47,191 nt of DNA from IMG/VR virus record IMGVR_UViG_3300044957_001125, positions 1 through 47,191 of that record; one strand, 5' to 3'. Positions 10,458 to 44,555 of the stretch are shown here, one piece after another. This DNA comes from a virus. A program made the translations under genes and the position numbers. The notes under the pieces were generated by a model, which worked only from the letters and a program-made list of their open reading frames with translations, had not been told where the DNA came from and made no database searches. The number at the start of each line of letters is the position of its first letter. Position 1 is the first letter of the stretch.

Positions 10458-10719
10458 GTCTATATTTTAAACCCCACATTAAATCATACATTGCTGCTTT
10501 TTGTTCTGCTATTTTAGAATGATATTTACATTCTTTTTTAAAAAAATCAATCATCCATTGTCTCCAAATGTTACCTTGTTCTTCAGTCATTGTCCATTGT
10601 GTATACCAATCATCTTTTCTATTAACAATATCTTCATAGCAAGTGTCATAACCAGCTATTTCAAACATTCTGTTTATGACATCTCTTACTACATCTTCAT
10701 CTGTTAATTTTCCCCTCAT
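10450..10719 (-). CDS. Hypothetical protein, 89 aa
   Basis: Soluble and helical, rich in Trp, Asp and Lys (DWYTQWTMTEEQGNIWRQWM). No family is recognised. It overlaps the next gene by 8 bases and the previous by 4. It may be a small adaptor or inhibitor; nothing in the sequence decides. Confidence 0.6.
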   Translation of the reverse strand: MRGKLTDEDVVRDVINRMFEIAGYDTCYEDIVNRKDDWYTQWTMTEEQGNIWRQWMIDFFKKECKYHSKIAEQKAAMYDLMWGLKYRHE

Positions 10720-20056: not shown

Positions 20057-20060
20057 ATTT

Positions 20061-20906
20061 TTATTTATTTAAATATTCTTTTATATAATCTTCAATATTA
20101 ATTTTAGCTTCCCATCCTAATATTTCTTTAGCTAATGTAACCATACATAATGTAGTTTGAGCTTCACCTGGTTTATTATCTTCATACACTATATTAGTTT
20201 TATATAAGTTAGCTATTTCATTAATAGAGTAATTTTTACCTCTACCTAACTCAAATATATTTCCCCAAGCTTGTTTTTTATCTATTAATATTAAAGCACT
20301 TACTATATCATTTACATGAGTAAAATCTCTACGTTTCTCACCTGTACCATAAATTATAAGTGGTTTTCCTTCTTCATATAATTTTTCCCATTTACCAATT
20401 ACAGTACAATATCCTCCTTCTTTTAAATGATGAGGGCCATACACATTATAAAAACGAGCAATAGATGCCTTTAATCCATAATGTGTTTGAAATAGTTGAA
20501 CAATTTCTTCACTTATATCTTTACTAAATGTATAAGGATTTTTAAACTTACCTGAGTGGTGAGAACTACTACCAGCAAAAACTAATGGAATGTTTTTTTC
20601 AGAACAATATTTAGCTATTTTAAAGGTACCATTAGCATTAGTAGTGAAATAATCATATGGTTCTTTAAATGATGGTTGTATTCTAGCTATAGCTGCTAAA
20701 TGATAGACAACATCAAATTCTCCCCATACTGAGTAATCATCAATATTTCTAATGTCAAATTCAATATATTGAGCTCCTTCTTGATGATTAGATTTTAAAC
20801 CAGTATAATAATTATCAACTGACACTACACTATGTCCTTCTTTTAATAATTGTTTAATTAAATTAGTGCCTACAAAACCAGCACCTCCTGTAACTAATAC
20901 TTTCAT
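20061..20906 (-). CDS. NAD-dependent sugar epimerase/dehydratase (extended SDR)
   Basis: A 281-residue extended SDR: GGAGFVG NAD motif, a VVSVDNYYTG strand and the catalytic Tyr-Lys in PYTFSKD with SSS upstream. It is similar in layout to the epimerase just below but divergent. The start overlaps the upstream gene's stop by four bases. It probably converts one nucleotide-sugar into another for the glycosyltransferases of the cluster. Confidence 0.85.
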   Translation of the reverse strand: MKVLVTGGAGFVGTNLIKQLLKEGHSVVSVDNYYTGLKSNHQEGAQYIEFDIRNIDDYSVWGEFDVVYHLAAIARIQPSFKEPYDYFTTNANGTFKIAKYCSEKNIPLVFAGSSSHHSGKFKNPYTFSKDISEEIVQLFQTHYGLKASIARFYNVYGPHHLKEGGYCTVIGKWEKLYEEGKPLIIYGTGEKRRDFTHVNDIVSALILIDKKQAWGNIFELGRGKNYSINEIANLYKTNIVYEDNKPGEAQTTLCMVTLAKEILGWEAKINIEDYIKEYLNK

Positions 20907-21805
20907 ACTCCAAATTTACTTTTAAATACTTGTTCTGTATATTTGTTTTTATAATTATCAATAGCAGTTTGACTACAGTTATTATAAAATACAGTATCAT
21001 TATTCAATAATTTAATTAATTTTTTTGCTGTAACCAAGTCCCCTACATCAACTGTTAAATCAGGATGACAAATTTCTTGAGTATCTAACCCTTTATACCC
21101 AATACAAGGTATACCTAAGTAAGCACAGTTAAGAGCAAATGTACCAGCAGCATGAGTTCTCATTAGATGAATTCCATATTTAAATTTATTTAACTCATGT
21201 ATCCATTGTTTCCAAGTTAGGTAAGGTAAATGTTGTATTAATTGTTCTTCACCTACTTGTTTTCTACCCATTGATGGAGCAAATACTTTATCAGTTATTT
21301 CACTTGCTACTATATAAGAATCAAATCCACCATACCATGACACAAAATTACCTCCTATAATAACACCCTGTCTTTTTACTTGTTCTAATTCACCTATAGC
21401 ATCTTCAATCATAAGTGAAGACATAACTCTAACATTTGGGTGGTTAGTTAATCCTTGATAATATATTTTATCAGTTTCATTATGAGTAAAAATAATATCA
21501 GCTGAAGTTAAAGTATTATAATACCAAATTTGTTTTGTTAAGTCATAGTCTTGCCAAAACCAATTAGGTCCCTCTTGCATCACAGCTATCTTATTACAGC
21601 TTAACTTTAAATTATCTAAATCAAAATCAGGATTTTTCTTAGGTATAATAACAATTCCTAAATCATATTTCTCAGTAGGTATTTGTTTTATATTATAATG
21701 ATCAGTTTCTAAAGCAACCATCCAAGCAAACTCAGTTCTCATATTTAAATGATTACGAGGTACTTTACCTTCAAATTCCATCTCAGTAAAAAAAGCTACT
21801 TTCAT
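20903..21805 (-). CDS. Putative GT-B glycosyltransferase, 300 aa
   Basis: The protein starts MKVAFFTEMEFEGKVPRN and has a Rossmann-like N-terminal half with NKIAVMQEGPNWFWQDYDL and ADIIFTHNETDKIYY. The C-terminal half holds HLMRTHAAGTFALNCAYLGI and PCIGYKGLDTQE, where GT-B enzymes bind donor nucleotide. I see no definite EX7E motif. It is closest to GT1/GT4 proteins. It overlaps both neighbours by four bases. Confidence 0.65.
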   Translation of the reverse strand: MKVAFFTEMEFEGKVPRNHLNMRTEFAWMVALETDHYNIKQIPTEKYDLGIVIIPKKNPDFDLDNLKLSCNKIAVMQEGPNWFWQDYDLTKQIWYYNTLTSADIIFTHNETDKIYYQGLTNHPNVRVMSSLMIEDAIGELEQVKRQGVIIGGNFVSWYGGFDSYIVASEITDKVFAPSMGRKQVGEEQLIQHLPYLTWKQWIHELNKFKYGIHLMRTHAAGTFALNCAYLGIPCIGYKGLDTQEICHPDLTVDVGDLVTAKKLIKLLNNDTVFYNNCSQTAIDNYKNKYTEQVFKSKFGV

Positions 21806-22410
21806 TTATTTCTTAATATAAAAAAGTGACGTATACCTTTATGACTATGACCTAAATCTTGTAAACTATCATTAGTTAAAACATCTACTAACTCATAATC
21901 AGCACTTACAAACTCAGTAAATTCTTCTAATGTTGAAGCAAACGGATCAATTGGATCAAATACTTTATTACAAACAATACTGTATTCTAAAATACATAAA
22001 CCATCCTTATTTAAACATGACATCCAAGCTTTTAAACAGTCATATGGTTTATATGAGTGATCAATTGAGTTTGAGTATACAATATCAACATTTGATACCC
22101 ATTCATCTTTGACATTATGAAAATCCCATTCAATAGTATTAGGAAAATTAATTGCTGTTGGAGAAATTTCTGTACCTAAAACATTAATATCAACATTTAA
22201 TTTAGCAAAGGATTGCTTAAAATATTGTTGCTCTAAACCTTGTCTTGTACCATGACATAATATAAATTTTGGTGTTTGTAATTTAAATATATAATTACAA
22301 ATCATATCAATTGATACTGGATCAACAAATGAATTTTTTATTTTATTTCTATTACCTCTAATTTGATTATCCTTATATTCTTGATAACTACTATAATTCC
22401 AGATTTTCAT
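21802..22410 (-). CDS. SAM-dependent methyltransferase-like protein, 202 aa
   Basis: A class I methyltransferase fold: FILCHGTRQGLEQQYFKQSF at the first strand (the GxG loop is degenerate), VLGTEISPTA at the second, then WVSNVDIVYSNSIDHSYKPY, a typical motif near the active site. It could methylate a sugar or a nucleotide-sugar in the pathway. It overlaps neighbours at both ends. The atypical SAM loop makes activity uncertain. Confidence 0.6.
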   Translation of the reverse strand: MKIWNYSSYQEYKDNQIRGNRNKIKNSFVDPVSIDMICNYIFKLQTPKFILCHGTRQGLEQQYFKQSFAKLNVDINVLGTEISPTAINFPNTIEWDFHNVKDEWVSNVDIVYSNSIDHSYKPYDCLKAWMSCLNKDGLCILEYSIVCNKVFDPIDPFASTLEEFTEFVSADYELVDVLTNDSLQDLGHSHKGIRHFFILRNK

Positions 22411-23290
22411 ACCTTATATTATTATGCTGTATAGCCTTATTTAAATTACTAAAATATCTACTAGCCTCATCATTATCACAAGTATGTATAAAACCTCTTT
22501 CTCCTTCAATACAATATTTACTAATTCGTTTTGTATTAGAAAACCAACGCACTGAGTTTATAAGATTATTATTGTAAATAAAATTTCTTAAATTACCTGC
22601 TGTTGTATTCCAATCAGTGATATCATTATATTTTGGAGAATTTGTTTTATTAACACGATTAACCTTAATATTATCCATTGGAAATCTATTTTTAGGTAAC
22701 ATGTCAATAAATTCTTTAGTATAAAAACAAAATGACCCACGTGGTGTAAATGCTTTTGGAATTTGTTCTGTATAACCATTATCTAAAAACATCCAATCAT
22801 TTTTATTAGGAACAATTTCTGTTTTAAATTGATGGTTACTTACTCCATACTTACTAGATTCTATAGGTTTAAATAATGTTAACTCAGGATTAAAAATATC
22901 AATAAACAAAGTATTAGATAATATTAAATTATCATCATGTGTTACTAAAAATATATCATAATTAGTATAGTCATAGTCCTCACACCATTGATTAAACACT
23001 TCCATGTCACCAATTGTATTTGGTTTTTCAATATAATTCCATCCTAATTTTTTAATAATATCTATTGTTAATATCTCATTATATAAAGCTGTGTCTAAAT
23101 GTTTAAGTATATCTTCTCCTTTATATAAACGAATTGATTCTTTTTCACTGATGGCATCTATATGTTCTGGGCTACGATGACTTATTGTAAATAAATCAAT
23201 AACATTATCTTGTTTATTTTGATTAGCTAATGCCTTATAGAACTGTGAAGCATAATGCCATCCAGAAGCTATAACTGCTATTTTTTTCAT
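22391..23290 (-). CDS. Putative glycosyltransferase-like protein, 299 aa
   Basis: The start is MKKIAVIASGWHYASQFYKA; near residue 135 YDIFLVTHDDNLILSNTLF could form the DxD-like metal site of a GT-A enzyme. The second half contains TPRGSFCFYTKEFIDMLPKN. Cluster position and the HDD motif suggest sugar transfer. No specific family is recognised. It overlaps the downstream gene by 20 bases. Confidence 0.5.
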   Translation of the reverse strand: MKKIAVIASGWHYASQFYKALANQNKQDNVIDLFTISHRSPEHIDAISEKESIRLYKGEDILKHLDTALYNEILTIDIIKKLGWNYIEKPNTIGDMEVFNQWCEDYDYTNYDIFLVTHDDNLILSNTLFIDIFNPELTLFKPIESSKYGVSNHQFKTEIVPNKNDWMFLDNGYTEQIPKAFTPRGSFCFYTKEFIDMLPKNRFPMDNIKVNRVNKTNSPKYNDITDWNTTAGNLRNFIYNNNLINSVRWFSNTKRISKYCIEGERGFIHTCDNDEASRYFSNLNKAIQHNNIRYENLEL

Positions 23291-23294
23291 CTGT

Positions 23295-23840
23295 TTAAAG
23301 ATTTATTCCTGATAAACTAGGGAACTTATTATTGATTACTTTATAATTAGTGATAGATTGAATTGATTGTATTTTAGTTCTATTATATTTTTCCATCCAA
23401 CTAATACTATCTCTCTCTAATGTTCCTCCTTCAAAAATAATTTTTGAGGTTGGGTACTTATTATACAATGATAATATTGTATCACCATCATTAGATATAT
23501 CTAAATGTATTAAGTCAAATTCTTCATCTTGATTTAACCAATCATTAAAATTAATTTTCTTTAAAGTAACATATTGTTTTAGATTATAATATTTTAAATT
23601 ATATTCTACAATACTTTTATCAGATGCTTTATATGGATATTCTTCAAATAAATCATATCCAATAATTTCTCCAAACCCATTATCTTTAACTGCTTGAGCT
23701 AAACAAATAATTGAATAACCATATAGCAATCCAAAGTCAATAATTTTTTTAGGTTTGCTAGTTATAACTACATCATAGATACTTTTACCTATATTATTAT
23801 CTACATATGAAGAGTAGATATGTTTTGGTTCTATAAACAT
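23295..23840 (-). CDS. SAM-dependent methyltransferase-like protein, 181 aa
   Basis: A class I methyltransferase layout: KKIIDFGLLYGYSIICLAQA (strand 1 and SAM loop), EIIGYDLFEEY (acid at the end of strand 2), DLIHLDISNDGD (strand 4), then KIIFEGGTLERDS. It resembles the Methyltransf_24/CmcI group, which modifies sugars. One base separates it from the aminotransferase gene. Confidence 0.6.
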   Translation of the reverse strand: MFIEPKHIYSSYVDNNIGKSIYDVVITSKPKKIIDFGLLYGYSIICLAQAVKDNGFGEIIGYDLFEEYPYKASDKSIVEYNLKYYNLKQYVTLKKINFNDWLNQDEEFDLIHLDISNDGDTILSLYNKYPTSKIIFEGGTLERDSISWMEKYNRTKIQSIQSITNYKVINNKFPSLSGINL

Positions 23841-23841
23841 A

Positions 23842-25017
23842 TTACCATCCTTGTTTTATACAGTCAACAATATATTCTCTTTGTTCTTCAGTCACCCACC
23901 ATCCAACTGGAATGGATGATAATTTAGGAACTGTTTTGCTTAGATTAGGTAGTAATGATCTATATTCTTTAACACAACTATGAATATCATTACGCTCATG
24001 TACTTGTGAACATGCTATACCTTTCTCAGCCATATAACGTTGAAAATCATTTTTACGCTCTACTAAAATACTATAAATCCAAAATGCTGATTCTCTATCA
24101 CTATGTCGTTTAGGTAAAGTCAAACCATCAATATTTTGTAATTCACTATCATAATAAGCAGCATTTGATTTGTGTTTAAAGACTATATTATTAATACATT
24201 TAAAATTCTCTAAGCCAATAGCTGCATTAATATCATTCATATGAAACTTAAATCCCCACTCTGAAATATCAGCTTCACACCTAAAATCTTTACGATTACC
24301 TTCTCTATCAATACCATACCACCTCAATAGCTTACCTCTTTTATATAATTCATCATGAGGTAAAAATAATAAACCACCATCACCTGAGGTGATATGTTTA
24401 ATAGCTTGTAAACTAAAAGTACAAATGTTACCATGTGTACCAATTAATTTACCTTTATATTTACTGCCCATAGCATGAGCACAATCCTCAATAATAGCTG
24501 GTTTGAAATTATACAACTTATAAGCTTGATTTTGTATTTCAGCTAACCTATCTAAATCAATTGGATAACCACCCCAATGCACTACAAATATAGCTTTAGT
24601 TTTAGGAGTAATTTTTCTAGCTAAATCATCTAGATCCATATTTAATGTATCAGGATCAATATCAACCCATTTAATCTTAAAGTTATTAGCTAGTATAGGC
24701 CAGTTAGTGGCTGTACAAGTTAAAGCTGTAGTCAACACTTCATCACCATTCTGTATTCCAGGCCAATAAGAAGTAGCATAACCATCAAATCCAAGCATAT
24801 GGTTAGATGGTTTTTTAAGCATATGTAATGCTAAATGTTCAGCTGATGTAGCAGCATTAACAGTTAAGATTTTATCATGTCTAAAATATTTTTTTAGATG
24901 CTCCTCAAACTCATCAACCACTGGTCCCTGGCCAATAAAACCACTTTTAAGCACTTGAGTTACTTTCTCAGGAGCTGTATCTGCCATATGTACTTTAAAT
25001 AAAGGTATGTTTTGCAT
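23842..25017 (-). CDS. DegT/DnrJ/EryC1-type sugar aminotransferase
   Basis: A 391-residue PLP enzyme of the sugar aminotransferase family: NAATSAEHLALHML, then IIEDCAHAMGSKYKGKLIG, then TFSLQAIKHITSGDGG, in which the Lys of QAIKH should hold the PLP. Full length for the family. These enzymes add an amino group to 3- or 4-keto nucleotide-sugars, matching the epimerase/dehydratases nearby. It is a strong sign that the cluster makes an amino sugar. Confidence 0.9.
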   Translation of the reverse strand: MQNIPLFKVHMADTAPEKVTQVLKSGFIGQGPVVDEFEEHLKKYFRHDKILTVNAATSAEHLALHMLKKPSNHMLGFDGYATSYWPGIQNGDEVLTTALTCTATNWPILANNFKIKWVDIDPDTLNMDLDDLARKITPKTKAIFVVHWGGYPIDLDRLAEIQNQAYKLYNFKPAIIEDCAHAMGSKYKGKLIGTHGNICTFSLQAIKHITSGDGGLLFLPHDELYKRGKLLRWYGIDREGNRKDFRCEADISEWGFKFHMNDINAAIGLENFKCINNIVFKHKSNAAYYDSELQNIDGLTLPKRHSDRESAFWIYSILVERKNDFQRYMAEKGIACSQVHERNDIHSCVKEYRSLLPNLSKTVPKLSSIPVGWWVTEEQREYIVDCIKQGW

Positions 25018-25053
25018 ATTCTAAATATAATTATTTTTTTATGTTTTACCAAA

Positions 25054-25860
25054 CTATTTGTATAATTCATTATATATACGTTGCATGAAATAAGCTCTAG
25101 TGCGGCCTAACTCATTTTGAGGTATAGCATTAAATTGATAAACCCATCCTGAGTTATATAGATTTGTTAAATCATCTTTCCACCAACATTGTTTAGAGAT
25201 ATATAATAAATTTTTTCTAGCTAAATCCATTACACCATATTCTCTAGGTAATATATTTAATTTAATATTAAATTCTTTACGTAAACAATTTATAAGTGTT
25301 ATATCACTACCTGTTAATAAAGTTTCATATGATTGAATCACTGCTTGTTGATTTTGTAAATACCAACTCATACATTTGGATAAAAATTCTTTATGATCTT
25401 TATTAACAATAACAAATCCAGTTTGAAAAAATTCATAATTAGGTATACAACATTCTTTATTAAAAAACATTTTAGAGTAGCCATTTATAGCTCTTGACAC
25501 CCATTCATAATCACCATCTGTTAATGGACTAGAAAATTTTCTATCTGTCAAATTAAAAAAATTAGGACAGTCTGGATGTACTATTGAGTCTGCATCAACA
25601 ACTAATACTTGATCATATTCAATACCACTATGTACTAAAATATCTAAAACATACCATCGTTGCCATGTTATTAACATTTCAGACTCAGGCATTAGTAGTT
25701 GATCCATAATAACCAACTCACAATTATTTTTTTTACACCACTGCCTCCAAGAATCTATACCAAACTCATATCCATCAGTTCGACCTACTTTACCAATACT
25801 AGATTTACTAGTATATTCTTGCTGTCGTTTAATAAAAGGTATAAAAACTATATTTTTCAT
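25054..25860 (-). CDS. Glycosyltransferase-like protein (GT-A), 268 aa
   Basis: The protein has an N-terminal KNIVFIPFIKRQQEYTSKSS, then a YDQVLVVDADSIVHPDCPNF segment: DAD is the metal-binding DxD of GT-A glycosyltransferases. A later NYEFFQTGFVIVNKDHKEFL matches the acceptor region of GT8-like enzymes. It lacks signal or membrane segments. The gene is three bases downstream of the DUF616-like gene. Confidence 0.7.
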   Translation of the reverse strand: MKNIVFIPFIKRQQEYTSKSSIGKVGRTDGYEFGIDSWRQWCKKNNCELVIMDQLLMPESEMLITWQRWYVLDILVHSGIEYDQVLVVDADSIVHPDCPNFFNLTDRKFSSPLTDGDYEWVSRAINGYSKMFFNKECCIPNYEFFQTGFVIVNKDHKEFLSKCMSWYLQNQQAVIQSYETLLTGSDITLINCLRKEFNIKLNILPREYGVMDLARKNLLYISKQCWWKDDLTNLYNSGWVYQFNAIPQNELGRTRAYFMQRIYNELYK

Positions 25861-25863
25861 TTA

Positions 25864-26586
25864 TTATTTTTTTCCTATATGTTTACCCAGATTTTTAAAA
25901 TACTTATTGTCTCTTGAGTCTCCAGGTATATATTCAAATTTTAAATTATTTTTCCAAGCGCAATAGTTAAAACTTAATTGGTCACGTTTAGAATTATATG
26001 AAATTTCTTCCCACCAACTTTCCATTGTTTGAATACAATCATATTCATTATGTCTACGTACTATAACCATACCTGTTATTAAACCATTATTCTTAGGATA
26101 ACCAGCATACTGATATTTTTCAATTTGTTTTGATATAATATCAGGATTATCTTTATAAGCTAATATTCCTCGTTCTGGATTTTTCTGATAGTTTATTTTT
26201 CCAATTTGAATAATATGAGATGCTTCATCATATAAACAATTTCTTGGATCTAAAATATTATTAGCGTGACTAAAAAAAGCTACATTAGATGACTTTAAAA
26301 CTAACTCTATTAATTCATTTGGATCAGACTGTAATAACATATTACCATCTATCCAAATACTATACTCATATTCTTTTAAATACCTATGAGGTAATACTTT
26401 AAATTTTTTAGCATTTCTATTAGAGTCATTATAAATAATAGGAACTTTTTTTATATTCCAAATATCAGATTTATAATCTGAATCAGTGAAACAAATAAAA
26501 TCACAATTAGATGGCTTAACTAATGGATTTGTGAGTGGATCATATTGACCAAATATTGATGTATATATAGCTATTTTACTTGACAT
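25864..26586 (-). CDS. DUF616/TOD1-type glycosyltransferase, 240 aa
   Basis: The start IAIYTSIFGQYDPLTNPL, then CDFICFTDSDYKSDIWNIKK, is the recognisable signature of the DUF616 (TOD1/MUCI70) family, and YEYSIWIDGNMLL carries the Asp-Gly-Asn motif of the donor site. Homologous proteins are proposed glycosyltransferases. The start overlaps the upstream gene by 16 bases. Confidence 0.75.
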   Translation of the reverse strand: MSSKIAIYTSIFGQYDPLTNPLVKPSNCDFICFTDSDYKSDIWNIKKVPIIYNDSNRNAKKFKVLPHRYLKEYEYSIWIDGNMLLQSDPNELIELVLKSSNVAFFSHANNILDPRNCLYDEASHIIQIGKINYQKNPERGILAYKDNPDIISKQIEKYQYAGYPKNNGLITGMVIVRRHNEYDCIQTMESWWEEISYNSKRDQLSFNYCAWKNNLKFEYIPGDSRDNKYFKNLGKHIGKK

Positions 26587-28004
26587 ATAATACCTTCATA
26601 ATGTTTCAAAATCTTATTTTGTGTTTTTGGTATAATAGTACCAGCATGATGTCCTATATACTCTAACACAACTAATTGACCAGTGTTTATAAATTCATCA
26701 ATTGCTTGTTTGATGTCTGGAAATAATCCATAGTCATCAAACACTAATATTGGTTTATTACATAATTCTATAACATTTAAAATATCTTGTTTAACATGTT
26801 GATATGTGTGTATACAGTCAATTAGTACTATATCGTGATGACCAAAATCCCATTTTTTATTATACACATCAGCTACTACATAATTTATATTATCACATTC
26901 ATGATTAACATTAATTTTTGAAAACTCATGTCGTTCAGGTAAAACATCTATAGCTGTAACTGACTTAAATAAATTACTTAATATCCTAGTTGTATATCCA
27001 GTTGATGATCCTACTTCTAATGCTGTTAAATTTTTATACTTATCTTTATTAAAGAAATCAATTAACTCTGATTTAAATTTTAAGGATGTAGTTGTTTTAG
27101 ATTCCCATTTATCAGGAACATTTTTTAATAATTTAACCTTTAATGGATCAAACACTAGTGTTTCACCATCAATAATATTAGATGATATTGGAAATTGTCT
27201 TTGTAACTCTATTACTTTTGAGTATCTAACAACTAATTGAGTTATGCCTGCTTGATTACCTATATTAACTTTAGCTTTAGTTTTAATATATAGTTGTATC
27301 TGAGTATCAATATTTCTCATATTCAATACCTGATTGATAAAATTAAATCGGGTCATTGATAATGGATCTTTGGTCCAGTAGAAATAAGGTAAATTATATT
27401 TTTTTAACTCATCAATTAGAATATTATCAGATTCATAATTATATCTATTAGATAATAATAAACAACCAAAGTCTTGATCACCAACATGTTGTTTAATTAT
27501 AGTGTCACCTATTTCTTTTTCTTGTTCTGAAAAATATAACTCAGGCTGTATATCATTAATTTCATTAAATTGCCAAAATTGTAAAATTTGTTTTAATAAT
27601 GGCTCATTTACTTCATCATAAATTCTAAAATGATCATTATACACTTCACCTTCAAATGAGTCAATAAATCCATCAACATAAGGATTATTATCAAATATAG
27701 TATGAACAACTTGAAATGGATCTGACCATGATGACCAATTTTTTTCTAAATGGCCAAACAGTTGTTGAAGTAATTTTGGTGATGGGATCCATACTTTACA
27801 GTCAGGATATTTTTCTTTTAATTTTCTAGGCATAGCTGAGATGATACCCCAGTCACCTAATCCAAAACATGTTCTTAAAATTATAAAGTTTTTATTATTT
27901 AAATAATCATCAGGTATATAAGATGGATCATTAATAGAAAAACCTAATTTATCTACTTCATCAATACTATATAATTTATTATTATATGTTCTCCAAAAAA
28001 TCAT
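26571..28004 (-). CDS. Fusion of GT9-like glycosyltransferase and class I methyltransferase
   Basis: A 477-residue two-domain protein. Residues about 40-290 are GT9/heptosyltransferase-like: FIILRTCFGLGDWGIISAMP, a mid segment with FGCLLLSNRYNY and KVNIGNQAGITQLVVRYSKV. Residues about 310-465 are a methyltransferase: LTALEVGSSTGYTTRILSNL, SVTAIDVLPERHEF, then HHDIVLIDCIHTYQHVKQDI. The fusion suggests one polypeptide adds a sugar and methylates it, or caps chain growth. It has tight overlaps on both sides. Confidence 0.8.
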   Translation of the reverse strand: MIFWRTYNNKLYSIDEVDKLGFSINDPSYIPDDYLNNKNFIILRTCFGLGDWGIISAMPRKLKEKYPDCKVWIPSPKLLQQLFGHLEKNWSSWSDPFQVVHTIFDNNPYVDGFIDSFEGEVYNDHFRIYDEVNEPLLKQILQFWQFNEINDIQPELYFSEQEKEIGDTIIKQHVGDQDFGCLLLSNRYNYESDNILIDELKKYNLPYFYWTKDPLSMTRFNFINQVLNMRNIDTQIQLYIKTKAKVNIGNQAGITQLVVRYSKVIELQRQFPISSNIIDGETLVFDPLKVKLLKNVPDKWESKTTTSLKFKSELIDFFNKDKYKNLTALEVGSSTGYTTRILSNLFKSVTAIDVLPERHEFSKINVNHECDNINYVVADVYNKKWDFGHHDIVLIDCIHTYQHVKQDILNVIELCNKPILVFDDYGLFPDIKQAIDEFINTGQLVVLEYIGHHAGTIIPKTQNKILKHYEGIICQVK

Positions 28005-28831
28005 TTGCTTATAGCTCTACCTTTCATTTGTTTCCAATCTTGTTCTGGTCTAACTTCTAGATTTGTTTTCCAAGCTGCTTCTAAAATATGCATAGGTGTA
28101 TTTAATTCTTTACCTAGTGTTATAAGAGCATTTATATCTTTAGGAAAACAAGTACCTCCAAACCCTAATTTACCATCATGTCCTGGTACATGCAAGTGTG
28201 AATCACCTACTCTACCATCTGAAGCAAACCCATGTTTAGCTGTTTCCCAATCAATACCTAATACCTTAGACATTCTATAAAATTCATTCATTATACTTAC
28301 TTTAGTAGCAAAGAAAGTATTATTCATATATTTAATAAACTCAGCTGTAGTTGAGTCAGTATGAATATAATGTCTATTTGCAAATCGTTGACTGAATAAT
28401 TGTTCTACTTTATCAGTTAAATGTTTTTCACCTCCAAATATAACTCTAGCTTGACTTAAGATGTCTAATTTAGCAGTTCGTTCAGTTAAAAACTCAGGAC
28501 AAAACACTATATTAAAATTATATTTGTCTTTCAATTGTTTTGTGGTACCTGGTAATATAGTTGATTTTAAAATAAAAATAGCTTCTGTATTATGTAACCC
28601 TATATTACTAAAGAAATTTTCAACATATGATAAGTCCTGTTCACCATTTTCTCTCATTGGTGTTGGTAAACATACAAATATAAAATCTTGAGATAATACT
28701 TCAAGTAATGTGTGTGTTGATTTAAGAGGATCAACATCAAATACTTTCATATCTGTTGTAGGAGAAAAAGCAAATATTTGAGCTTCACCTACAAAACCAT
28801 TTCCAACAACACCTACTTTAAATTTGTTCAT
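28001..28831 (-). CDS. UDP-glucose/GDP-mannose dehydrogenase family protein, C-terminally short
   Basis: NAD motif GVVGNGFVG near residue 5, FVCLPTPM, then VFCPEFLTERTA, KYMNNTFFATKVSIMNEFYR and GFGGTCFPKDINALI with the catalytic Cys. All key motifs of nucleotide-sugar dehydrogenases up to the active-site Cys are present. The chain stops at 276 residues against about 390-450, so the C-terminal UDP-binding domain is missing. The start is set at ATG 28831; the frame upstream opens only from a TTG in the preceding gene. It may make a uronic acid or be reduced to a binding role. Confidence 0.8.
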   Translation of the reverse strand: MNKFKVGVVGNGFVGEAQIFAFSPTTDMKVFDVDPLKSTHTLLEVLSQDFIFVCLPTPMRENGEQDLSYVENFFSNIGLHNTEAIFILKSTILPGTTKQLKDKYNFNIVFCPEFLTERTAKLDILSQARVIFGGEKHLTDKVEQLFSQRFANRHYIHTDSTTAEFIKYMNNTFFATKVSIMNEFYRMSKVLGIDWETAKHGFASDGRVGDSHLHVPGHDGKLGFGGTCFPKDINALITLGKELNTPMHILEAAWKTNLEVRPEQDWKQMKGRAISK

Positions 28832-29444
28832 AAAACTTATTTTGTTTTTCTTGTCTTTCAATTGTTTTAGGATGTATTAATTCGTATCCTTTAGGTAAAT
28901 TAGCTATTGTTTTCCATCCAGATAATCTTTCATGTACTTTATTTTTCCATTGAATATCTTTTTTATTAGTACAAATACGAGTTTGATAATCTGGGTAGTT
29001 AACCCAACCATTATCATCTACAAACCATCTCCATTTATCAATATGAACACGAGTTAATCCTTTAACTGTATTAATACGAGGTAAAGCTATAACATCAACT
29101 AAACCTTTATTCATATCCAATATATTATGAATGTTTTCAGCTAATCCATCACTTAAGTATTCATCAGCATCAATAAAGAATATCCAATCACGTGTACAAT
29201 GATCTTTAACATTGTTTTTAAATGATGCAAAGTCACCATTTAATGAGGATGATATTCTATGATATTCAAATTTTTGACTAACATTATATTTACCAGCTAC
29301 TTTTTTCACCTTGTCTATAGCTGTATTATCTAGTTGAACCATTATTTCATCTCCTGGTTTAATAATAGTTACTAATTGATCTAATAAGCGTTCTAATTCA
29401 ATATATTCATTCCATGCTGTAATAGCAAAACTAATAGTAGTCAT
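28818..29444 (-). CDS. Family 2 glycosyltransferase, 208 aa
   Basis: A GT-A enzyme: TISFAITAWNEYIELERLLD, later WIFFIDADEYLSDGLAENIH, with the Asp-Ala-Asp metal site, and a short C-terminal part (WKNKVHERLSGWKT) with the HE typical of family 2 members. It is near the lower length limit for a complete domain. The stop overlaps the dehydrogenase start by 14 bases. Confidence 0.8.
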   Translation of the reverse strand: MTTISFAITAWNEYIELERLLDQLVTIIKPGDEIMVQLDNTAIDKVKKVAGKYNVSQKFEYHRISSSLNGDFASFKNNVKDHCTRDWIFFIDADEYLSDGLAENIHNILDMNKGLVDVIALPRINTVKGLTRVHIDKWRWFVDDNGWVNYPDYQTRICTNKKDIQWKNKVHERLSGWKTIANLPKGYELIHPKTIERQEKQNKFYEQI

Positions 29445-29453
29445 AACTTAATT

Positions 29454-29882
29454 TTAAATTAAACCAATATAATGACAAGCCTCATCAAATTGGTCTTTAG
29501 TAAATGTTTTTAATGTTTTAGGATCTGATTTATGAGTTGCATCTTTAAGTTTTTCTTTTTCTTCATCTGTTGTTTCTATAGCTTTAATACCTGCCCAACC
29601 CCAAGTATCTTTATTAGTACCATTTACAAACACAGTACCTTTATCCTGAATATTAATAACTGTTGGATACCAAACATGTTTATCAGTATCAATAAACTTA
29701 ATATCTTTATATAACTCAGGCATTACTTCTTCTGTTTGAGTCACTAACTCACTTCCTTCAATCATTAATTCGTTAGTTGTATATCCACAACTCATACAAC
29801 TCCAAATTGATATACCTTGTTGTTTATGTTCATAACAAGCATCTGATCCACAGTGAGCACATGTTACTAATTTATCATTCAT
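29454..29882 (-). CDS. Zinc-ribbon protein, 142 aa
   Basis: The N-terminus has two Cys pairs: VTCAHCGSDAC and SCMSCGYTT (first and last pair about 24 residues apart), a typical zinc ribbon. The remaining 100 residues are soluble and acidic. Similar small zinc-ribbon proteins are common in T4-like marine phages, function unknown. A related ribbon occurs at 35061..35303. The start overlaps the stop of the 43-aa gene. Confidence 0.65.
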   Translation of the reverse strand: MNDKLVTCAHCGSDACYEHKQQGISIWSCMSCGYTTNELMIEGSELVTQTEEVMPELYKDIKFIDTDKHVWYPTVINIQDKGTVFVNGTNKDTWGWAGIKAIETTDEEKEKLKDATHKSDPKTLKTFTKDQFDEACHYIGLI

Positions 29883-30006
29883 TGTTTTCTAATTTTACTG
29901 TTTTTAATACTTCTTTTAATTCATCCCATCCAGCAGGTGTTAAATTAAAATTATCACTACCTGCTACAAATCCTCTAAACCATATAATAAAATCTCTACT
30001 TGTCAT
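29875..30006 (-). CDS. Small hypothetical protein, 43 aa
   Basis: ATG at 30006 overlaps the stop of the glycosyltransferase gene by one base. The frame reads MTSRDFIIWFRGFVAGSDNF, then NLTPAGWDELKEVLKTV, and ends in an overlap with the zinc-ribbon gene. The WxxLKEVLxTV end resembles small phage proteins of unknown role in many dsDNA phages. Confidence 0.65.
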   Translation of the reverse strand: MTSRDFIIWFRGFVAGSDNFNLTPAGWDELKEVLKTVKLENNE

Positions 30007-31337
30007 CACTCTATTTTTTTAAGTTTAGGTAAATTAAGTTTAGGTAATTCATCATTATTTACTTTTTTTAGAGAGGGTAATTTAAGTTCAACTTGTTTAG
30101 GTACTTTTGATTCTAAAATATTATCTAATATCTCAGCCATTTTATTAAATGAATAATTTGTTTTAGCAAAATGTGTTTGACGTTTAGATTTTTCTAAATG
30201 TTTATTATAATCATTATAAACTGATTTAAATGCATCAGCCACTTCTTCATCATTAGGTGTAAACCACTGTGACTCAGCTAATATCATATTTTTAGCTTGA
30301 GCTGATTTATGAACTGGAGTTAAAGTACCATTCACTAAAACATTATATTCTGGGTGTAAGAAATCAATATGTCCACTCCAGTTACTAGCTATAATGGGTT
30401 TTTTAGTTAAACTAAATTCAAGTAATGGTCTTCCAAATCCTTCACCTTTAGTTAATGACACCATTGCTTTTATTTTACCATGGTTATATAAATCATTCAT
30501 ATCCTTATTCTCTAGATCACCATGTAACAAGTATATGTTTGGTAAAGTACCTTTAACAGTTTGTCTAACAGCATCTATTTTTTTAAGTATCTCATCTCTA
30601 TCCATTATAGAGTTAGTCACTTGAGAGGTCTTTAAAATCAAACCTGGTTTAGTTCCTTTTTTGTTCTTGAATGTTTCTAAAAATGCTTTAATTAAGTAGC
30701 CAACATTTTTTCTATCTTCATTAATATCACCCTGCAACCAATGTCCAACAAATAAAAAGTTAAAATCCTCTTCAATATCATCTAATGATGTTACTAACTC
30801 AGTATCTTCTAAATCATTATCATCAACATGGAAATATTCATTTAAATTAACTCCTTCAAATAAAACTTCTACTGGTTTTTCTAATTTAATCATTCCTTTA
30901 AGCTGATTGTTTTGCTTATTTCTTTTTTCAAATGAATTTGTTTCAAATACTCTTTTAGCATGATTAGATGATACTAATGTTAAATTCATTCTATTAATAC
31001 CTTCAATCCAGCTTGGATCACAAACAGTAGTTTCAATACCGGCGGTGATACCAATATTAAATTTACCTACTGCTTGAAATTCATTTGGTACTGTAATCTG
31101 AATCCAAATATCTGGTTGTTGAGGTAATTGAGGTTGTTTCCAAATTAAATCATGCAGTTTTTTATCTTCTAGGTTATTTAAATTTAAGGCATTCCATGCT
31201 GTATTTCCCCAACGTTGAGATATGACTTTAATGTTATACTTATCATATTTTAAAAGTGCTTTAACTATGTCTCTAGCTCTAGCTCCATACCCAGACATTG
31301 TCTCAATAGGACAACTTATAACTAATAATGGTTTCAT
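30006..31337 (-). CDS. GT-B glycosyltransferase (GT4-like), 443 aa
   Basis: A GT-B protein: PLLVISCPIETMSGYGARAR at the N-terminus, FLFVGHWLQGDINEDRKNVG at the second Rossmann start, and GEGFGRPLLEFSLTKKPIIA, the EX7E-like donor site of GT4 (here GEGFGRPLLE). A Lys-rich tail follows. The start is placed at ATG 31337; the longer frame begins with a TTG. Six bases separate it from the upstream GT gene. Confidence 0.85.
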   Translation of the reverse strand: MKPLLVISCPIETMSGYGARARDIVKALLKYDKYNIKVISQRWGNTAWNALNLNNLEDKKLHDLIWKQPQLPQQPDIWIQITVPNEFQAVGKFNIGITAGIETTVCDPSWIEGINRMNLTLVSSNHAKRVFETNSFEKRNKQNNQLKGMIKLEKPVEVLFEGVNLNEYFHVDDNDLEDTELVTSLDDIEEDFNFLFVGHWLQGDINEDRKNVGYLIKAFLETFKNKKGTKPGLILKTSQVTNSIMDRDEILKKIDAVRQTVKGTLPNIYLLHGDLENKDMNDLYNHGKIKAMVSLTKGEGFGRPLLEFSLTKKPIIASNWSGHIDFLHPEYNVLVNGTLTPVHKSAQAKNMILAESQWFTPNDEEVADAFKSVYNDYNKHLEKSKRQTHFAKTNYSFNKMAEILDNILESKVPKQVELKLPSLKKVNNDELPKLNLPKLKKIE

Positions 31338-31342
31338 AACTA

Positions 31343-32773
31343 TCAATAAACTAATTTATGACGAATATGTTTTTTTTTAAGTGGTTCAATTTTAATTAAT
31401 TCAAATTTATATCTTGGTTTCCAGTTAGCCAAAACTTCATTAATATGTTTTATAACATTTTTACTCATATTTTCAGCTGACATCATAGCTTCATTTGAGG
31501 TTACCCATTCACGAGCTAATTTACCTCTACACTTACGCTCCTCATCTCCCATTTCATATATTTTCATAATAGCATCTGCTGCGTCTCTAAAATCAGCTCT
31601 ATCATCATAGATATAAGGAGTTGGAACTGAACCTTGGATACTTATGTTACTTGGAAATACTGGTATAGCCCAATCACCACATTGTTTATACTTGCCAAAA
31701 TGGTTAGAACAAAAATCAGCATCAAAATTAATCCACTTACCATTCTCATCTACAAAACGCATTTGGTCTTGCATACCACCAGTCACATTAGCAATAATTG
31801 GTTTACCACACATCATTGCCTCAGTTAATGATAGTCCCCATCCTTCATTTGATGTTAATAATATACAAGCATCACTAATATTATAAATTAAATTAAGATC
31901 TTGAGATGATATTCTTGAATCTGAAAAATAAATTTGATTATACTGTTCATCTGTAAATAACATATCACGTACAGCATATAAGTCAGTTCCATTATCATCA
32001 ATAGGCTGTGTGTGTAAAATTAAAGCACATTTATTAGCTTTTTCTTTTGGTAATTTATCTAAAAATACCTTAAACGCAGCCATTGTGTCAGGTATTTGCT
32101 TACGTCTAATATTTCTAGAGTTAAACATTAAAATAAAGTCATATTGTTTATCACCAAATAATTTTTTCTTAACCTTATTTAGTTTAGAAGTATCATCAAT
32201 TGGGAAAAATATTTTCTCATTAATACCATGTGGTACATAACTTAATACTTTATTTTTAGCTTTATCACCTAACACTAATTTATTTATGTTAAATGTTTGT
32301 TTTGATATAGCCATTAACCCATCACATGACTCATAATATGATTCATTATATAATGGAGCTGGATAATTATCCCAAATATTAAGGTAAATAATAGGTATTC
32401 TTCTCCTAATTTCATTTTCAATTTGAAATAACCAAATCCAATATCTTGGGTCTGTAAACATCATTAATGCATCTGGCTTTTCAAAATCTAACATCTGTCT
32501 GATATACTGAGCATCTCCATACCCACTAATTGGATATAGAATAATATTAGCATCATCAATACCAGCATGTTTGTTAGTATCAGCATTTAAATCAAAGCGT
32601 TTGCCTTGATCTGGATGGTTAATAGCACCTCCAATATTAACCCAATTGTAATGATGTGCTGTACCTAATACAATTTCTCTAGCCATTGTGCTAATACCAG
32701 ATGTCATTCTGATATCATCACATAATAATAAGACTTTTTTCCTTTGTGCCTGAGGTAAATAACCTTCTTTCAT
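31343..32773 (-). CDS. GT-B glycosyltransferase (GT4-like), 476 aa
   Basis: N-terminal KVLLLCDDIRMTSGISTMAR (Rossmann with the SG acceptor loop), LMFTDPRYWIWLF, MFNSRNIRRKQIPDTMAAFK at domain two, and SNEGWGLSLTEAMMCGKPII, the EX7E donor-site motif. Length and motifs fit GT4. It is first in the glycan transcript; 20 bases upstream lies the stop of a small RHH-like gene. Confidence 0.85.
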   Translation of the reverse strand: MKEGYLPQAQRKKVLLLCDDIRMTSGISTMAREIVLGTAHHYNWVNIGGAINHPDQGKRFDLNADTNKHAGIDDANIILYPISGYGDAQYIRQMLDFEKPDALMMFTDPRYWIWLFQIENEIRRRIPIIYLNIWDNYPAPLYNESYYESCDGLMAISKQTFNINKLVLGDKAKNKVLSYVPHGINEKIFFPIDDTSKLNKVKKKLFGDKQYDFILMFNSRNIRRKQIPDTMAAFKVFLDKLPKEKANKCALILHTQPIDDNGTDLYAVRDMLFTDEQYNQIYFSDSRISSQDLNLIYNISDACILLTSNEGWGLSLTEAMMCGKPIIANVTGGMQDQMRFVDENGKWINFDADFCSNHFGKYKQCGDWAIPVFPSNISIQGSVPTPYIYDDRADFRDAADAIMKIYEMGDEERKCRGKLAREWVTSNEAMMSAENMSKNVIKHINEVLANWKPRYKFELIKIEPLKKKHIRHKLVY

Positions 32774-38957: not shown

Positions 38958-39200
38958 TTATTCATTACCTTTTCTCTTATTGATAAATTTATCCACAGAG
39001 GCAATTCCAAAAGCACCTAATACAATTATCATAAATCCATTAAATACAAACTCATGAATAGGCATATTTTTACCTATTATACCTGTTATTATATCAGCGA
39101 TTAAGGTTATTACCATCATTAAAAAGGCTGTAAATCCAACTACTGACTTTTCATTAATTGAATTTGAATCATCAAATAGATTTTTAAAGAATTGTTTCAT
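38958..39200 (-). CDS. Two-helix membrane protein, 80 aa
   Basis: Starts MKQFFKNLFDDSNSINEKSV, then a helix VGFTAFLMMVITLIADIITG and a second, HEFVFNGFMIIVLGAFGIAS, with a basic tail KFINKRKGNE. The layout resembles class II holins, and a secreted peptidase (38017..38439) lies downstream, but its role is not proved. The start is ATG 39200; the frame extends upstream only from a TTG. Confidence 0.65.
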   Translation of the reverse strand: MKQFFKNLFDDSNSINEKSVVGFTAFLMMVITLIADIITGIIGKNMPIHEFVFNGFMIIVLGAFGIASVDKFINKRKGNE

Positions 39201-39219
39201 ATTTTTAGTTTTTATCAAT

Positions 39220-39256: not shown

Positions 39257-39270
39257 TATAATTTATTTTG

Positions 39271-39676
39271 TGGAGGTGAGGAGATTCGAACTCCTGTCTT
39301 TATATGGAACAATAACACTAACGTTTCACATGCTTAGATCTGCAAGCTGATCAGTAATTGGGAACGTCAGTTTTGGTTGACGTCGGCTCCACCACCTTAT
39401 TTTACTATAAACAAGGAAATTCATGGTTCACAATATGTGTCCAAAACGCCGTCTCTTTAGTGTACGACTCACTGCTGTTCTGTTGCAAGGCTATCAGCTG
39501 CCCCTATGCTTACTTAAGCCGCATACGCGTACTCTTCAGCGCCTACAAACGCTACTAAGTCGTCGAAGGTCATTGTTGACATTTCGTCATTTATTGTTTA
39601 GTATCTTCTAAGGCAGTATACTCAAATGCCTGCATGTAGTGGTACCTTCACATATAAATCAATTCCAGTCACCCCC
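39271..39676 (-). ncRNA. ssrA: Transfer-messenger RNA with long tag frame
   Basis: The 5' end GGGGGTGACTGG and the 3' end CACCTCCA form a seven-pair acceptor stem; pair three is G-U, the alanine identity element. The T arm AGGAG, TTCGAAT, CTCCT and the conserved CTAAGCATGT before the 3' end fit tmRNA. CCA is not encoded. The tag frame resumes with ATA (39594) followed by Asn-Asp-Glu, as in E. coli, and ends Glu-Glu-Tyr-Ala-Tyr-Ala-Ala at a TAA (39514..39516). It has 26 codons, far more than the usual 8 to 12. tmRNA frees stalled ribosomes and marks the nascent chain for proteolysis. The middle section of the tag (Met-Ser-Thr-Met-Thr-Phe-Asp-Asp-Leu-Val) is unusual. Confidence 0.93.
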
Positions 39677-39746: not shown

Positions 39747-39923
39747 TTACTTAGCTTCAACAGTAGGTGTAGAAGCAATAGTGTCAACAGCAGCAGCTGT
39801 AGTAACTATGGCTACAGTAGAATCAACAGCAGTTGAATCAACAGTTGTAGCGGCTCCTTCACTTGAGTTGTTACAAGCGGCAAATGTAATCACAGCTGCA
39901 ATTGCAAACAATACTTTTTTCAT
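39747..39923 (-). CDS. Small lipoprotein, 58 aa
   Basis: Starts MKKVLFAIAAVITFAAC: a classic lipoprotein signal with the lipobox TFAAC and cleavage before Cys17. The mature part is NNSSEGAATTVDSTAVDSTV and further Thr/Ala/Val repeats, without a fold. Bacteroidetes genomes carry many such short proteins. It would be anchored in the outer membrane and could block phage re-entry or modulate the surface. It lies between tRNA-Leu and tmRNA. A TATATTTA box lies upstream, next to the end of the tRNA. Confidence 0.75.
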   Translation of the reverse strand: MKKVLFAIAAVITFAACNNSSEGAATTVDSTAVDSTVAIVTTAAAVDTIASTPTVEAK

Positions 39924-39958
39924 GTTTCCTGTTTTAATTGTTAATAATAAATATATTG

Positions 39959-40045
39959 TACCTCAGGCCGGAGTCGAACCGGCACGGACGTTTTCTGTCC
40001 AAAGGATTTTAAGTCCTTCGTGGCTACCAATTACACCACCGAGGT
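39959..40045 (-). tRNA. tRNA-Leu (anticodon UAA)
   Basis: An 87-base tRNA on the minus strand: acceptor ACCTCGG with CCTGAGGT (one G-T), anticodon loop CTTAAAA with TAA in the middle, a long variable arm (GGACAGAAAACGTCC) typical of class II, and a perfect T arm GCCGG, TTCGACT, CCGGC. CCA is not encoded. It reads UUA, the Leu codon favoured by AT-rich genes, so it could support phage translation. Confidence 0.93.
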
Positions 40046-41882: not shown

Positions 41883-43520
41883 TTAATACCCTAATTCAGG
41901 TCCAAAATTATCTTCTTTTTTCTTATCTGTTGGTTCTTCATGAACAACAGTTTCAGTTGTTAATATTGTACCTGCCACAGCAGCTGCGTTTTCAATTGCT
42001 AAACGAGTTACTTTAGTTGGATCTAAAATACCTTCATCTTCCATATTAACAAATGTTTCTGATTTTAAATCATAACCAAACCAAGTACCATTTAACTTAC
42101 CTAGTTCATACATATACCAAGTTGGATTATTTAATCCAGCATTGTCTAAAATTTGAATAAAAGGTGAAGATAAAGCAGAGTAGACAATTTTTTTACCAAT
42201 ATTAAAGTCAACACTATCATCCATTGATTCATTTATAGCTTCTCTAGCATATAATAAAGCGGCACCACCACCTGGTAATACACCTTCTTCAATAGCAGCA
42301 CGAGTAGCAAATAAAGCATCTTCTACTCTATCTTTATATTCTTTTAACTCAATTTCATTATTACCACCAACATTAATAATAGCAACTCCACCTACAAGTT
42401 TACCTAAACGTTCTTGTAATTTTTCTTTTTCAAAGAATGATTGTGCTTGATCAATTTGTGTTTTAATTTCTTCAGCTCTAGCTGTGATTGCTTCTTCAGT
42501 ACCTTTACCATCAATAACAGTTGTTTTTTCTTTACCCACAGTCACTGTTCTAGCTTTACCTAAATAGGCTGATAATTGAGCTACATTTAACTTATCTAGC
42601 TTTAATCCTTTTTCTTTACTAATAACTTGACCACCAGTAACAATAGCTAAATCTTCTAATAACAATGTTCTACGCTCACCAAAATCAGGTGCTTTAACAG
42701 CTACCGCTCTAACAATACCTCTCATTTTATTAACAATAAGTGTTGCTAATGCTTCACCATCAATATCTTCAGCCACAATTAATAATGATTTATTTTCACT
42801 ATTAACTTTTTGAAGTACATTCAATAACTCAGCAGCTGTATTAATACAACCATCATAAATTAAAATATATGGATCATCAAGCACAGCTTGCATTGTATTA
42901 TTGTTAGTAACAAAATAAGGTGATTTATAACCTCTATCAAACTGAATGCCTTCAACTACTTCAAGTGTTGTTTCACCTGTTTTACTTTCTTCAATAGCAA
43001 CTACTCCATCACGACCTACTTTTTCTAAAGCAGTAGCAATCAAATTACCTGTGAACTCATCATTGTTAGATGAAATTGTAGCTACTTGTTTTAGTTGTTC
43101 TTCAGATGAAATATCTTTACTGTTTTGTTTAAGTGCTTTGACTACTTGTTTAACAGCTTTATCAATACCTTTTTTAATTTCAATAGCATTTGCTCCAGCT
43201 CTAACTTTACTCAAGCCTTCTTTAACCATAGTGTTAGCCAAAAGAGTAGTAGTGGTAGTACCATCTCCAGCTGTGTTGGCTGAACGTATAGCAGCTTGTT
43301 TAACAATTTCAGCACCAATATTTTCAATTGGATCTTTAAGTTTGATTGATTTTGCAACTGTGACTCCATCTTTAGTTGATTGAGGTAATTCATTTTCTTT
43401 TTCAATAATAACATTACGGCCAAATGGACCTAATGTTGTGATAACGGCTTTAGATAACTTATCTACTCCATTAGCAAGTTTCTGTCTCGCTTCTGTGTTA
43501 TAAATTATAATTTTACTCAT
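41883..43520 (-). CDS. groEL: Chaperonin GroEL
   Basis: A 545-residue group I chaperonin. Signatures: TLGPFGRNVIIEKENELPQS, DGVTVAKSI, AGDGTTTTTLLA (nucleotide loop), DALFATRAAIEEGVLPGGGA (ATP hydrolysis Asp region). The length equals that of bacterial GroEL, but the C-terminus is charged (DKKKEDNFGPELGY) rather than the Gly-Gly-Met repeats. Together with a GroES gene (overlap 8 bases) it should form an own folding machine, perhaps for a capsid protein the host system does not fold. Confidence 0.95.
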   Translation of the reverse strand: MSKIIIYNTEARQKLANGVDKLSKAVITTLGPFGRNVIIEKENELPQSTKDGVTVAKSIKLKDPIENIGAEIVKQAAIRSANTAGDGTTTTTLLANTMVKEGLSKVRAGANAIEIKKGIDKAVKQVVKALKQNSKDISSEEQLKQVATISSNNDEFTGNLIATALEKVGRDGVVAIEESKTGETTLEVVEGIQFDRGYKSPYFVTNNNTMQAVLDDPYILIYDGCINTAAELLNVLQKVNSENKSLLIVAEDIDGEALATLIVNKMRGIVRAVAVKAPDFGERRTLLLEDLAIVTGGQVISKEKGLKLDKLNVAQLSAYLGKARTVTVGKEKTTVIDGKGTEEAITARAEEIKTQIDQAQSFFEKEKLQERLGKLVGGVAIINVGGNNEIELKEYKDRVEDALFATRAAIEEGVLPGGGAALLYAREAINESMDDSVDFNIGKKIVYSALSSPFIQILDNAGLNNPTWYMYELGKLNGTWFGYDLKSETFVNMEDEGILDPTKVTRLAIENAAAVAGTILTTETVVHEEPTDKKKEDNFGPELGY

Positions 43521-43803
43521 AAATTGATAAAATTTCTGATTCTTTGGTCACAATATAATCTTCTCCATCTACAGTGATTTTAACTGATCCCATTTTAGGA
43601 ACAAGTACTTTTTGGCCTGGTTTTAATTGAGATAAGACACTTTCACCTTTATGCCAGTTGTAAGTATTACTAATAGCAATTACTTCTCCAATTTCAGGTT
43701 TTTCCTTACCCATATCTGGAATAACAATATTTCCAATCATTTGTTCTTCATTATCAATTGGCTTGATTATAATATGACCATTGATAGGTTCTAATTTACT
43801 CAT
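43513..43803 (-). CDS. groES: Co-chaperonin GroES
   Basis: A 96-residue GroES: IKPIDNEEQMIGNIVIPD, then GEVIAISNTY, then LKPGQKVLVPKMGSVKITVD, then GEDYIVTKESEIL. The mobile loop carries MIGNIVIP, consistent with GroEL binding. The start is set at ATG 43803; the frame upstream opens only from a TTG and would add 15 residues not seen in GroES. The stop overlaps groEL's start. Confidence 0.93.
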   Translation of the reverse strand: MSKLEPINGHIIIKPIDNEEQMIGNIVIPDMGKEKPEIGEVIAISNTYNWHKGESVLSQLKPGQKVLVPKMGSVKITVDGEDYIVTKESEILSIYE

Positions 43804-43825
43804 ATTCTTTATTTTATTAAATATA

Positions 43826-44032
43826 TTAATTTTTTGGCTTGAATCCAAGTATTTTAGCTTCTTCTATTTCATCTAGAAAAAATAAATAACCTTCCTTTCT
43901 TAATACTTTATCAGCACCTAACCACTGCATTAATAAATCAAGATTATCACCTGTATACTTAGGATCATCAAGTATACGTCTAATTAGAATATAAGCTTTG
44001 TCTTGAAAATAAATTATTTGTTTTGAAATCAT
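43826..44032 (-). CDS. Hypothetical protein, 68 aa
   Basis: A small protein (MISKQIIYFQDKAYILIRRI; NLDLLMQWLGADKVLRKEGY) with amphipathic helices. It sits between hsp20 and groES, and may be part of the chaperone transcript. No family is recognised. Confidence 0.6.
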   Translation of the reverse strand: MISKQIIYFQDKAYILIRRILDDPKYTGDNLDLLMQWLGADKVLRKEGYLFFLDEIEEAKILGFKPKN

Positions 44033-44043
44033 AACTGAGATTT

Positions 44044-44555
44044 GGTAGGTCTCATTTTAATTATCCTTTAAGGATTTGTTTTTTATTTACTTTAATTTCT
44101 ACTTTCCTTGGAGCCTGTTCAGCTGAATAAGGAACATCAATAATAAGTAAACCTTTATCTAATACTGCTTCTAAATTACGCAAATCAAATTTAGATGCTA
44201 CTTTCCAAGCCAAGTCAAATGAGCGACGGGCAATACCTTTTTGAATGTATTGATGTGTATCATGCTCTGGACGTTCATGTTTGATACGTAATGTATCACC
44301 TTCTACTTGGATGTCTAAATCTAATTCTGTAAGACCTACTACTGCAAGTTCAAATCGTAACCCAGTTTCTATTTCATAAATGTCAACTGGATAGCTGATT
44401 TTTTGATTGATTGTGTTAAAATTTGAGTTCGTGTCAAAAAAATTCTTCCACACGATGTCAAACGGGTCAATACCCCAATGTGTTAATTGTGTCATAATAT
44501 TTGTTTTTGTGCCCCCTAAGGTGGCGGTTAATTAATACATAACTTGAGACCTACC
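44044..44555. repeat. 11-base inverted repeat flanking hsp20
   Basis: GGTAGGTCTCA occurs at 44044..44054 and its reverse complement TGAGACCTACC at 44545..44555. They bracket the hsp20 gene. Nothing else in the region shows this exact pairing. The copies could be operators or fossil ends of an insertion. Confidence 0.4.
44061..44495 (-). CDS. Small heat-shock protein Hsp20
   Basis: A 144-residue alpha-crystallin-type chaperone. The core runs PVDIYEIETGLRFELAVVGL, LDIQVEGDTLRIKHERPEHD, ARRSFDLAWKVASKFDLRNL and KGLLIIDVPYS; the GLLIIDVP segment matches the signature GxLxIxxP of the family. The N-terminus is WGIDPFDIVWKNFF, and the C-terminal tail is basic. It holds unfolded proteins for GroEL. 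T4-like marine phages often carry Hsp20; here it joins GroEL/ES in one unit. Confidence 0.9.
   Translation of the reverse strand: MTQLTHWGIDPFDIVWKNFFDTNSNFNTINQKISYPVDIYEIETGLRFELAVVGLTELDLDIQVEGDTLRIKHERPEHDTHQYIQKGIARRSFDLAWKVASKFDLRNLEAVLDKGLLIIDVPYSAEQAPRKVEIKVNKKQILKG

Follow-up and report, generated by a model that had tools for sequence, protein, structure and literature searches.

A tmRNA gene in a lysis-like neighborhood

The window, i.e., the whole 47,191-nucleotide stretch of viral DNA analyzed here, encodes a one-piece tmRNA (ssrA) at 39270..39676 on the minus strand, a strand that the preliminary description of this locus had not given. Two programs converge on the gene: ARAGORN places it at 39676-39270, and a covariance-model search matches the full Rfam RF00023 model (positions 1-374) at 56.6 bits (E 1.2e-19; gathering score 47). 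The acceptor stem, GGGGGUG/CACCUCC as read off the Rfam alignment, carries the G3-U70 wobble that specifies alanine identity; the phage tmRNA and the alanine G-U pair proposed earlier therefore both stand. By every feature tested, this RNA is a member of the tmRNA family; it is the tag that differs, in length and in content.

Three neighbors of the tmRNA are encoded on the same strand: a tRNA-Leu(UAA) adjoins it (39958..40045, minus strand; ARAGORN and Rfam), a small lipoprotein-like gene recognized from its sequence lies directly upstream (39747..39923, minus strand), and a gene cluster for a small membrane protein, holin-like in appearance, supplies the gene directly downstream (38958..39218, minus strand). 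The holin-like cluster is found in 19/25 loci, the window included, and its window member has no Pfam or PHROG match; the lipoprotein-like cluster is found near the tmRNA in 18/25 loci, a count in which the clustering did not pick up the window copy. With an NlpC/P60 gene also nearby in the window, these surroundings look like a lysis region. Farther upstream, at a distance of a few kb, a block encoding GroEL, GroES, and HSP20 (41883-44495) is common to close relatives. Elsewhere in the window (17979-31346), the open reading frames suggest an extended series of genes for glycosyltransferases, NDP-sugar epimerases, and aminotransferase-like proteins, an unusual amount for a 47 kb piece of phage DNA.

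What kind of phage is this? The group is uncultured and T4-like and probably has Bacteroidota hosts, as suggested by a short match to Flavobacterium phages and by the style of the tmRNA. By DNA polymerase, the nearest isolate is Microcystis phage Mel-JY01 (37% identity), in which no full tmRNA match was found.

Limits of the tag reading frame

Where the tag starts in E. coli depends on U85 and, above all, on A86, which occupy -5/-4 relative to the resume codon; A86 is almost universally conserved, and the system tolerates U85C (PMC2481249). Their equivalents in the window are the U-A at 39592..39593 (minus strand), which stand at -5/-4 of a GAC codon. Among relatives of this tmRNA, A is present at -4 in 63/63 distinct DNA variants, with U or C at -5; it is kept in L177 and L182, in which CAGTAAAT stands before GAC. 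The codons preceding GAC are free to vary (ATA/ACA, AAT/ACT). Because of this context, its constancy at -4, and the variability upstream, the tag is taken to start at GAC and to comprise 24 codons, DEMSTMTFDDLVAFVGAEEYAYAA (39588-39517, minus strand), followed by a TAA stop (39516-39514); the complete frame (39514..39588, minus strand) corresponds to ARAGORN coding part 89-163 and is backed by peptide conservation in 41 distinct relatives. The preliminary description had resumption at ATA and a 26-codon tag beginning Ile-Asn. ATA has no U-A context at -5/-4, the ATA AAT codons lie upstream of the resume point marked by the U-A at 39593-39592, and these three claims have to be given up. The resume codon itself is not fixed: some relatives have GCA, GCT, GTA, or AAC instead of GAC.

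The remainder of the earlier frame holds. It is open through an insert, here about 15 codons long, and it ends as predicted in Tyr-Ala-Tyr-Ala-Ala, with YAYAA followed by TAA; within the long tag, STMTFDDLVAFVGA precedes EEYAYAA. The latter (39517..39537, minus strand) is an ordinary hydrophobic, degron-like C-terminal end. The corresponding ends in relatives are YALAA, YAVAA, and YAYAA, rarely ATFA or YQMAA, so that a degron-like end is kept in nearly all of them.

RNA folding places the stop codon in the loop of a P5-like hairpin, TATGC-GGCTTAAGTAA-GCATA (39505..39525, minus strand). In relatives whose tags are of the DYA type, the stem is formed differently, by pairing of the Asp and stop codons, and the 3' bases of the two covary (GAC with TAG in 15, GAT with TAA in 10, GAT with TAG, a G-U pair, in 7, and GAC with TAA in 0); this covariation assigns the stop to the stem and determines where the frame ends. 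A general rule that the stop always occupies the loop was rejected (2/61 by simple folding; stop in the stem in the DYA type). Also rejected was an independent small ORF starting from the ATG of the tag, because this codon is replaced by TTA or TTG in many relatives. Automated annotation conceals long tags: in many of the relatives' loci, ARAGORN shortened the tag or missed the gene altogether.

Conservation of the insert

IMG/VR relatives were gathered through the neighboring GroEL gene and a tag profile. A relative of the tag was recognized in at least 193 IMG/VR stretches, and 80 of these were retained. Overall, the analysis extracted 41 different tag peptides, encoded by 63 DNA variants; almost all have 23-26 residues, with a near-constant core, and the relatives show neither short tags nor frame breaks in the insert. 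The common motif is E-[M/L]-S-x-[M/F/W]-[T/N]-[F/Y]-x5-F-[V/I]-G-A, and the first 15-17 residues follow (D/V)E(M/L)S-x-(M/F/W)(T/N)(F/Y)xDxMxF(V/I)GA. In the window, the insert is MSTMTFDDLVAFVGA (39538..39582, minus strand). Since this search had picked loci by their tags, a second one was keyed on the 3' tRNA-like half of the gene, away from the tag: 40 of the 41 stretches that it returned include the tag region, and all 40/40 have the insert, some in divergent forms (AEELSSFTFEDAMSFVGADYAVAA, NNVELSTWNFEDAMAFVGADLAIAA), although a 3'-end pattern derived from this phage clade detects near relatives only, so that more distant phage tmRNAs would escape it.

Several relatives are peculiar in other ways. 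L204 (4148-4267) has an intact insert and a changed tag end that stops at DYE, and L166 (1501-1820; one gene with L045 and L181) an intact insert and a chimeric run-on end; each may be a real variant or an assembly error. In L148 and L150 (both 10289-10512), the tmRNA gene is split by group I introns (about 97 bits) that lie in the T-loop after GTGGGTT, and the exon of L150 can be seen to continue with CGAATCCCAC; both split genes escaped ARAGORN. T-loop introns are known from bacterial tmRNA (PMC11915505), whereas these lie inside phage long-tag tmRNAs. Finally, in one lineage (L095-L133, tag DEMSTMTFDSMMEFIGASEYAYAA), 16/39 contigs end at most 350 bases after the tag, in or just after the tmRNA, which suggests a repeat or recombination point there.

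Is it the peptide that is conserved? For the tag frame, 32 different cores of 16 codons give a pN/pS of 0.19, vs 1.42 and 3.33 in the other frames; the two other frames contain stops in 72/79 and 36/79 sequences. When changes are counted by parsimony on a tree of the flanking tmRNA sequence, codon positions 1/2/3 have 70/24/164, and 77/196 codon changes alter the amino acid. That an RNA element rather than a peptide is being conserved is extremely improbable: tmRNA is a structured RNA and the region after the insert does pair with the stop codon, with covariation, but changes at third codon positions outnumber those at second positions about sevenfold and the length variants of the tag differ by whole codons. 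The pN/pS values, the codon-position pattern, and the whole-codon indels all point to a translated peptide and argue against a spacer, a pure RNA element, or a short tag; judged from the sequences, translation of the long tag appears well supported. The conservation of the insert is beyond chance, as it recurs in at least 193 viral stretches and is maintained at the peptide level.

A short true tag, with resumption at a GCx codon after the insert (e.g., ANEYALAA) and the insert serving as an untranslated spacer, would agree with ARAGORN, which gives ANEYALAA, AEEYAYAA, ADEYAYAA, ANEYAVAA, and ADYALAA in several loci, and with the GTAGGC ahead of GCx in many sequences, which places a U-A at -5/-4 there also. 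However, A is found at the internal -4 position in 37/62 variants and is absent from 25/62 (GTT, ATT, ATC), against 63/63 at the upstream site, and selection on the peptide is unexpected for a spacer; we regard internal resumption as very improbable.

Outside these phages, the insert was sought in vain. The tag motif occurs in none of 50,697 isolate phage records; among 84,980 bacterial and archaeal species genomes, it produced 27 pattern matches, of which 0 were confirmed, and a degenerate DNA pattern of the tag found none in 396 Bacteroidota genomes. A tmRNA blast against isolate phages returned merely short chance or tRNA-like matches, and the tag profile run against all ORFs of the analyzed phage loci found nothing significant in other proteins. 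In fifty bacterial tmRNAs sampled from the breadth of Bacteroidota, the tag is 9-10 residues long, except for one that ARAGORN calls at 15. Two stray hits were discarded, a single PDB match to the tag profile (E 1.4, chance) and a second tmRNA-like match in a bacterial genome (L390 in G170), a weakly scoring copy with an ordinary GENNYALAA tag. One phage clade alone has the insert, and the searched host genomes lack it.

A proposed two-part tag and its known counterparts

What could the extra residues do? Their substitutions follow a helix-cap pattern, with M/F/W at N', T/N at N-cap, D/S at N3, and either Ala or a hydrophobic side chain at N4 (L, M, V, A), and an invariant Gly closes the span. 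The pattern is consistent with the capping box and hydrophobic staple of an N-capped helix, predicted to be amphipathic. AlphaFold, applied to a relative with 13 aligned sequences, predicts a helix on FDDLMAFV, after the capping T and before the G, with moderate confidence (mean pLDDT 75.5); the 33-residue model includes untranslated upstream residues, so only its local helix feature is used. Together, the substitutions and the modeled helix lend support, short of proof of binding, to a docking helix.

The reading that we favor, and consider somewhat probable, is that a standard trans-translation tag has been built in two parts, a conserved docking helix followed by an ordinary hydrophobic C-terminal degron. 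SmpB was found in none of 15 phage records and must come from the host; the phage tmRNA would work with host SmpB and the host ribosome. We infer that it is charged and used in infected cells: on a stalled ribosome, it would give alanine, translation would resume at GAC, and the bipartite tag would be added. The first 15-17 residues would then form a short N-capped amphipathic helix that offers a binding surface to a partner, whether an adaptor, a domain of an unfoldase, or some other delivery factor, while the last 5-7 residues (YA-x-AA) would make up the customary hydrophobic end that a ClpX-type unfoldase recognizes.

The preliminary description had suggested that a long tag could carry a second signal. 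The conservation pattern and the predicted capped helix fit this idea; a partner did not emerge from the phage records searched, in which a Clp-type AAA_2 unfoldase is absent from 30, and SspB and Lon each from the nine largest. A ClpP-family protein is encoded in 4/15 records, and in three of these a copy of its gene and the tmRNA are about 4 kb apart (L328, L329, L330, and L332, from records G042, G038, and G040); none was found among the annotated ORFs of the 47 kb window, itself a genome piece. A partner of host origin or an unrecognized phage protein is more likely than a known phage-encoded adaptor.

Might the tag, rather than speed the degradation of stalled products, instead put them to use for the phage, by sequestering them, associating them with a membrane or the virion, or inactivating them? 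An insert that is phage-restricted in our searches, more constant than the degron end, and encoded amid genes resembling a lysis region would suit such a role, but the degron-like end is kept and the searched phage records yielded no partner; we think it quite unlikely. An unlikely possibility, too, is that the extra residues are a degron for another protease (e.g., Lon or host FtsH) and not a docking helix. The precedent is Mesoplasma florum, in which a long ssrA tag is read by Lon (Gur and Sauer, reviewed in PMC8138137), and the insert has many F, L, M, and V residues; but M. florum is without ClpXP while the phage tags keep a ClpX-type C-terminus in nearly all members, the nine largest phage records lack Lon, and constraints of the capping type go beyond what bulk hydrophobicity would demand in specificity.

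Returning to the two-part tag, the pattern of conservation makes it very likely that the extra stretch has a job beyond ordinary degradation. A stronger version, in which the insert is a dedicated docking helix through which the phage, using a phage-encoded or recruited partner, controls what becomes of proteins coming off stalled ribosomes, is possible yet doubtful; if true, it would amount to viral reprogramming of trans-translation and not a copy of a host function. Either way, a clade-confined insert conserved as a peptide is a direct handle on why phages carry tmRNA, one that can be deleted or swapped. Proposed reasons include keeping the hijacked machinery running and degrading host proteins (PMC9004378).

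How does this RNA compare with known tmRNAs? With standard one-piece tmRNAs, e.g., those of Bacteroidota with GENNYALAA or ANDYSYAMAA tags, it shares the tRNA-like domain with G3-U70, the U/C-A before the resume codon, the stop at a hairpin, and the hydrophobic C-terminus; yet their tags have 9-10 residues, whereas the phage tags have 23-26 and a conserved, predicted-helical insert. The M. florum tag is likewise unusually long, with extra information ahead of its C-terminus, but belongs to the cellular system of a ClpXP-less mollicute, whereas the phage tag is phage-borne and has a ClpX-type end. To our knowledge, the two tags are unrelated in sequence. The E. coli ssrA tag, with its SspB and ClpX sites, has the outline proposed here, with docking upstream and unfoldase recognition at the C-terminus; the phage docking part is longer, predicted to be helical, and different in sequence, and no SspB was found in nine phage records. 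Other phages encode tmRNAs, among them mycobacteriophages Bxz1 and others, phage G, and Melnitz (PMC4131195, PMC9004378); in the available portions of these reports, ssrA is likewise phage-borne, a phage SmpB is not part of the description, and no long conserved insert is described, and Melnitz ssrA is two-piece while that of the window is one-piece. Among 97,179 tmRNAs, the commonest tag length is 10 residues (PMC11915505). In the open-access literature, we found no account of a conserved helical tag insert shared by a phage clade. Long tmRNA tags and phage tmRNAs were already known; what is new, within that literature, is a conserved insert in the tag of a phage clade.
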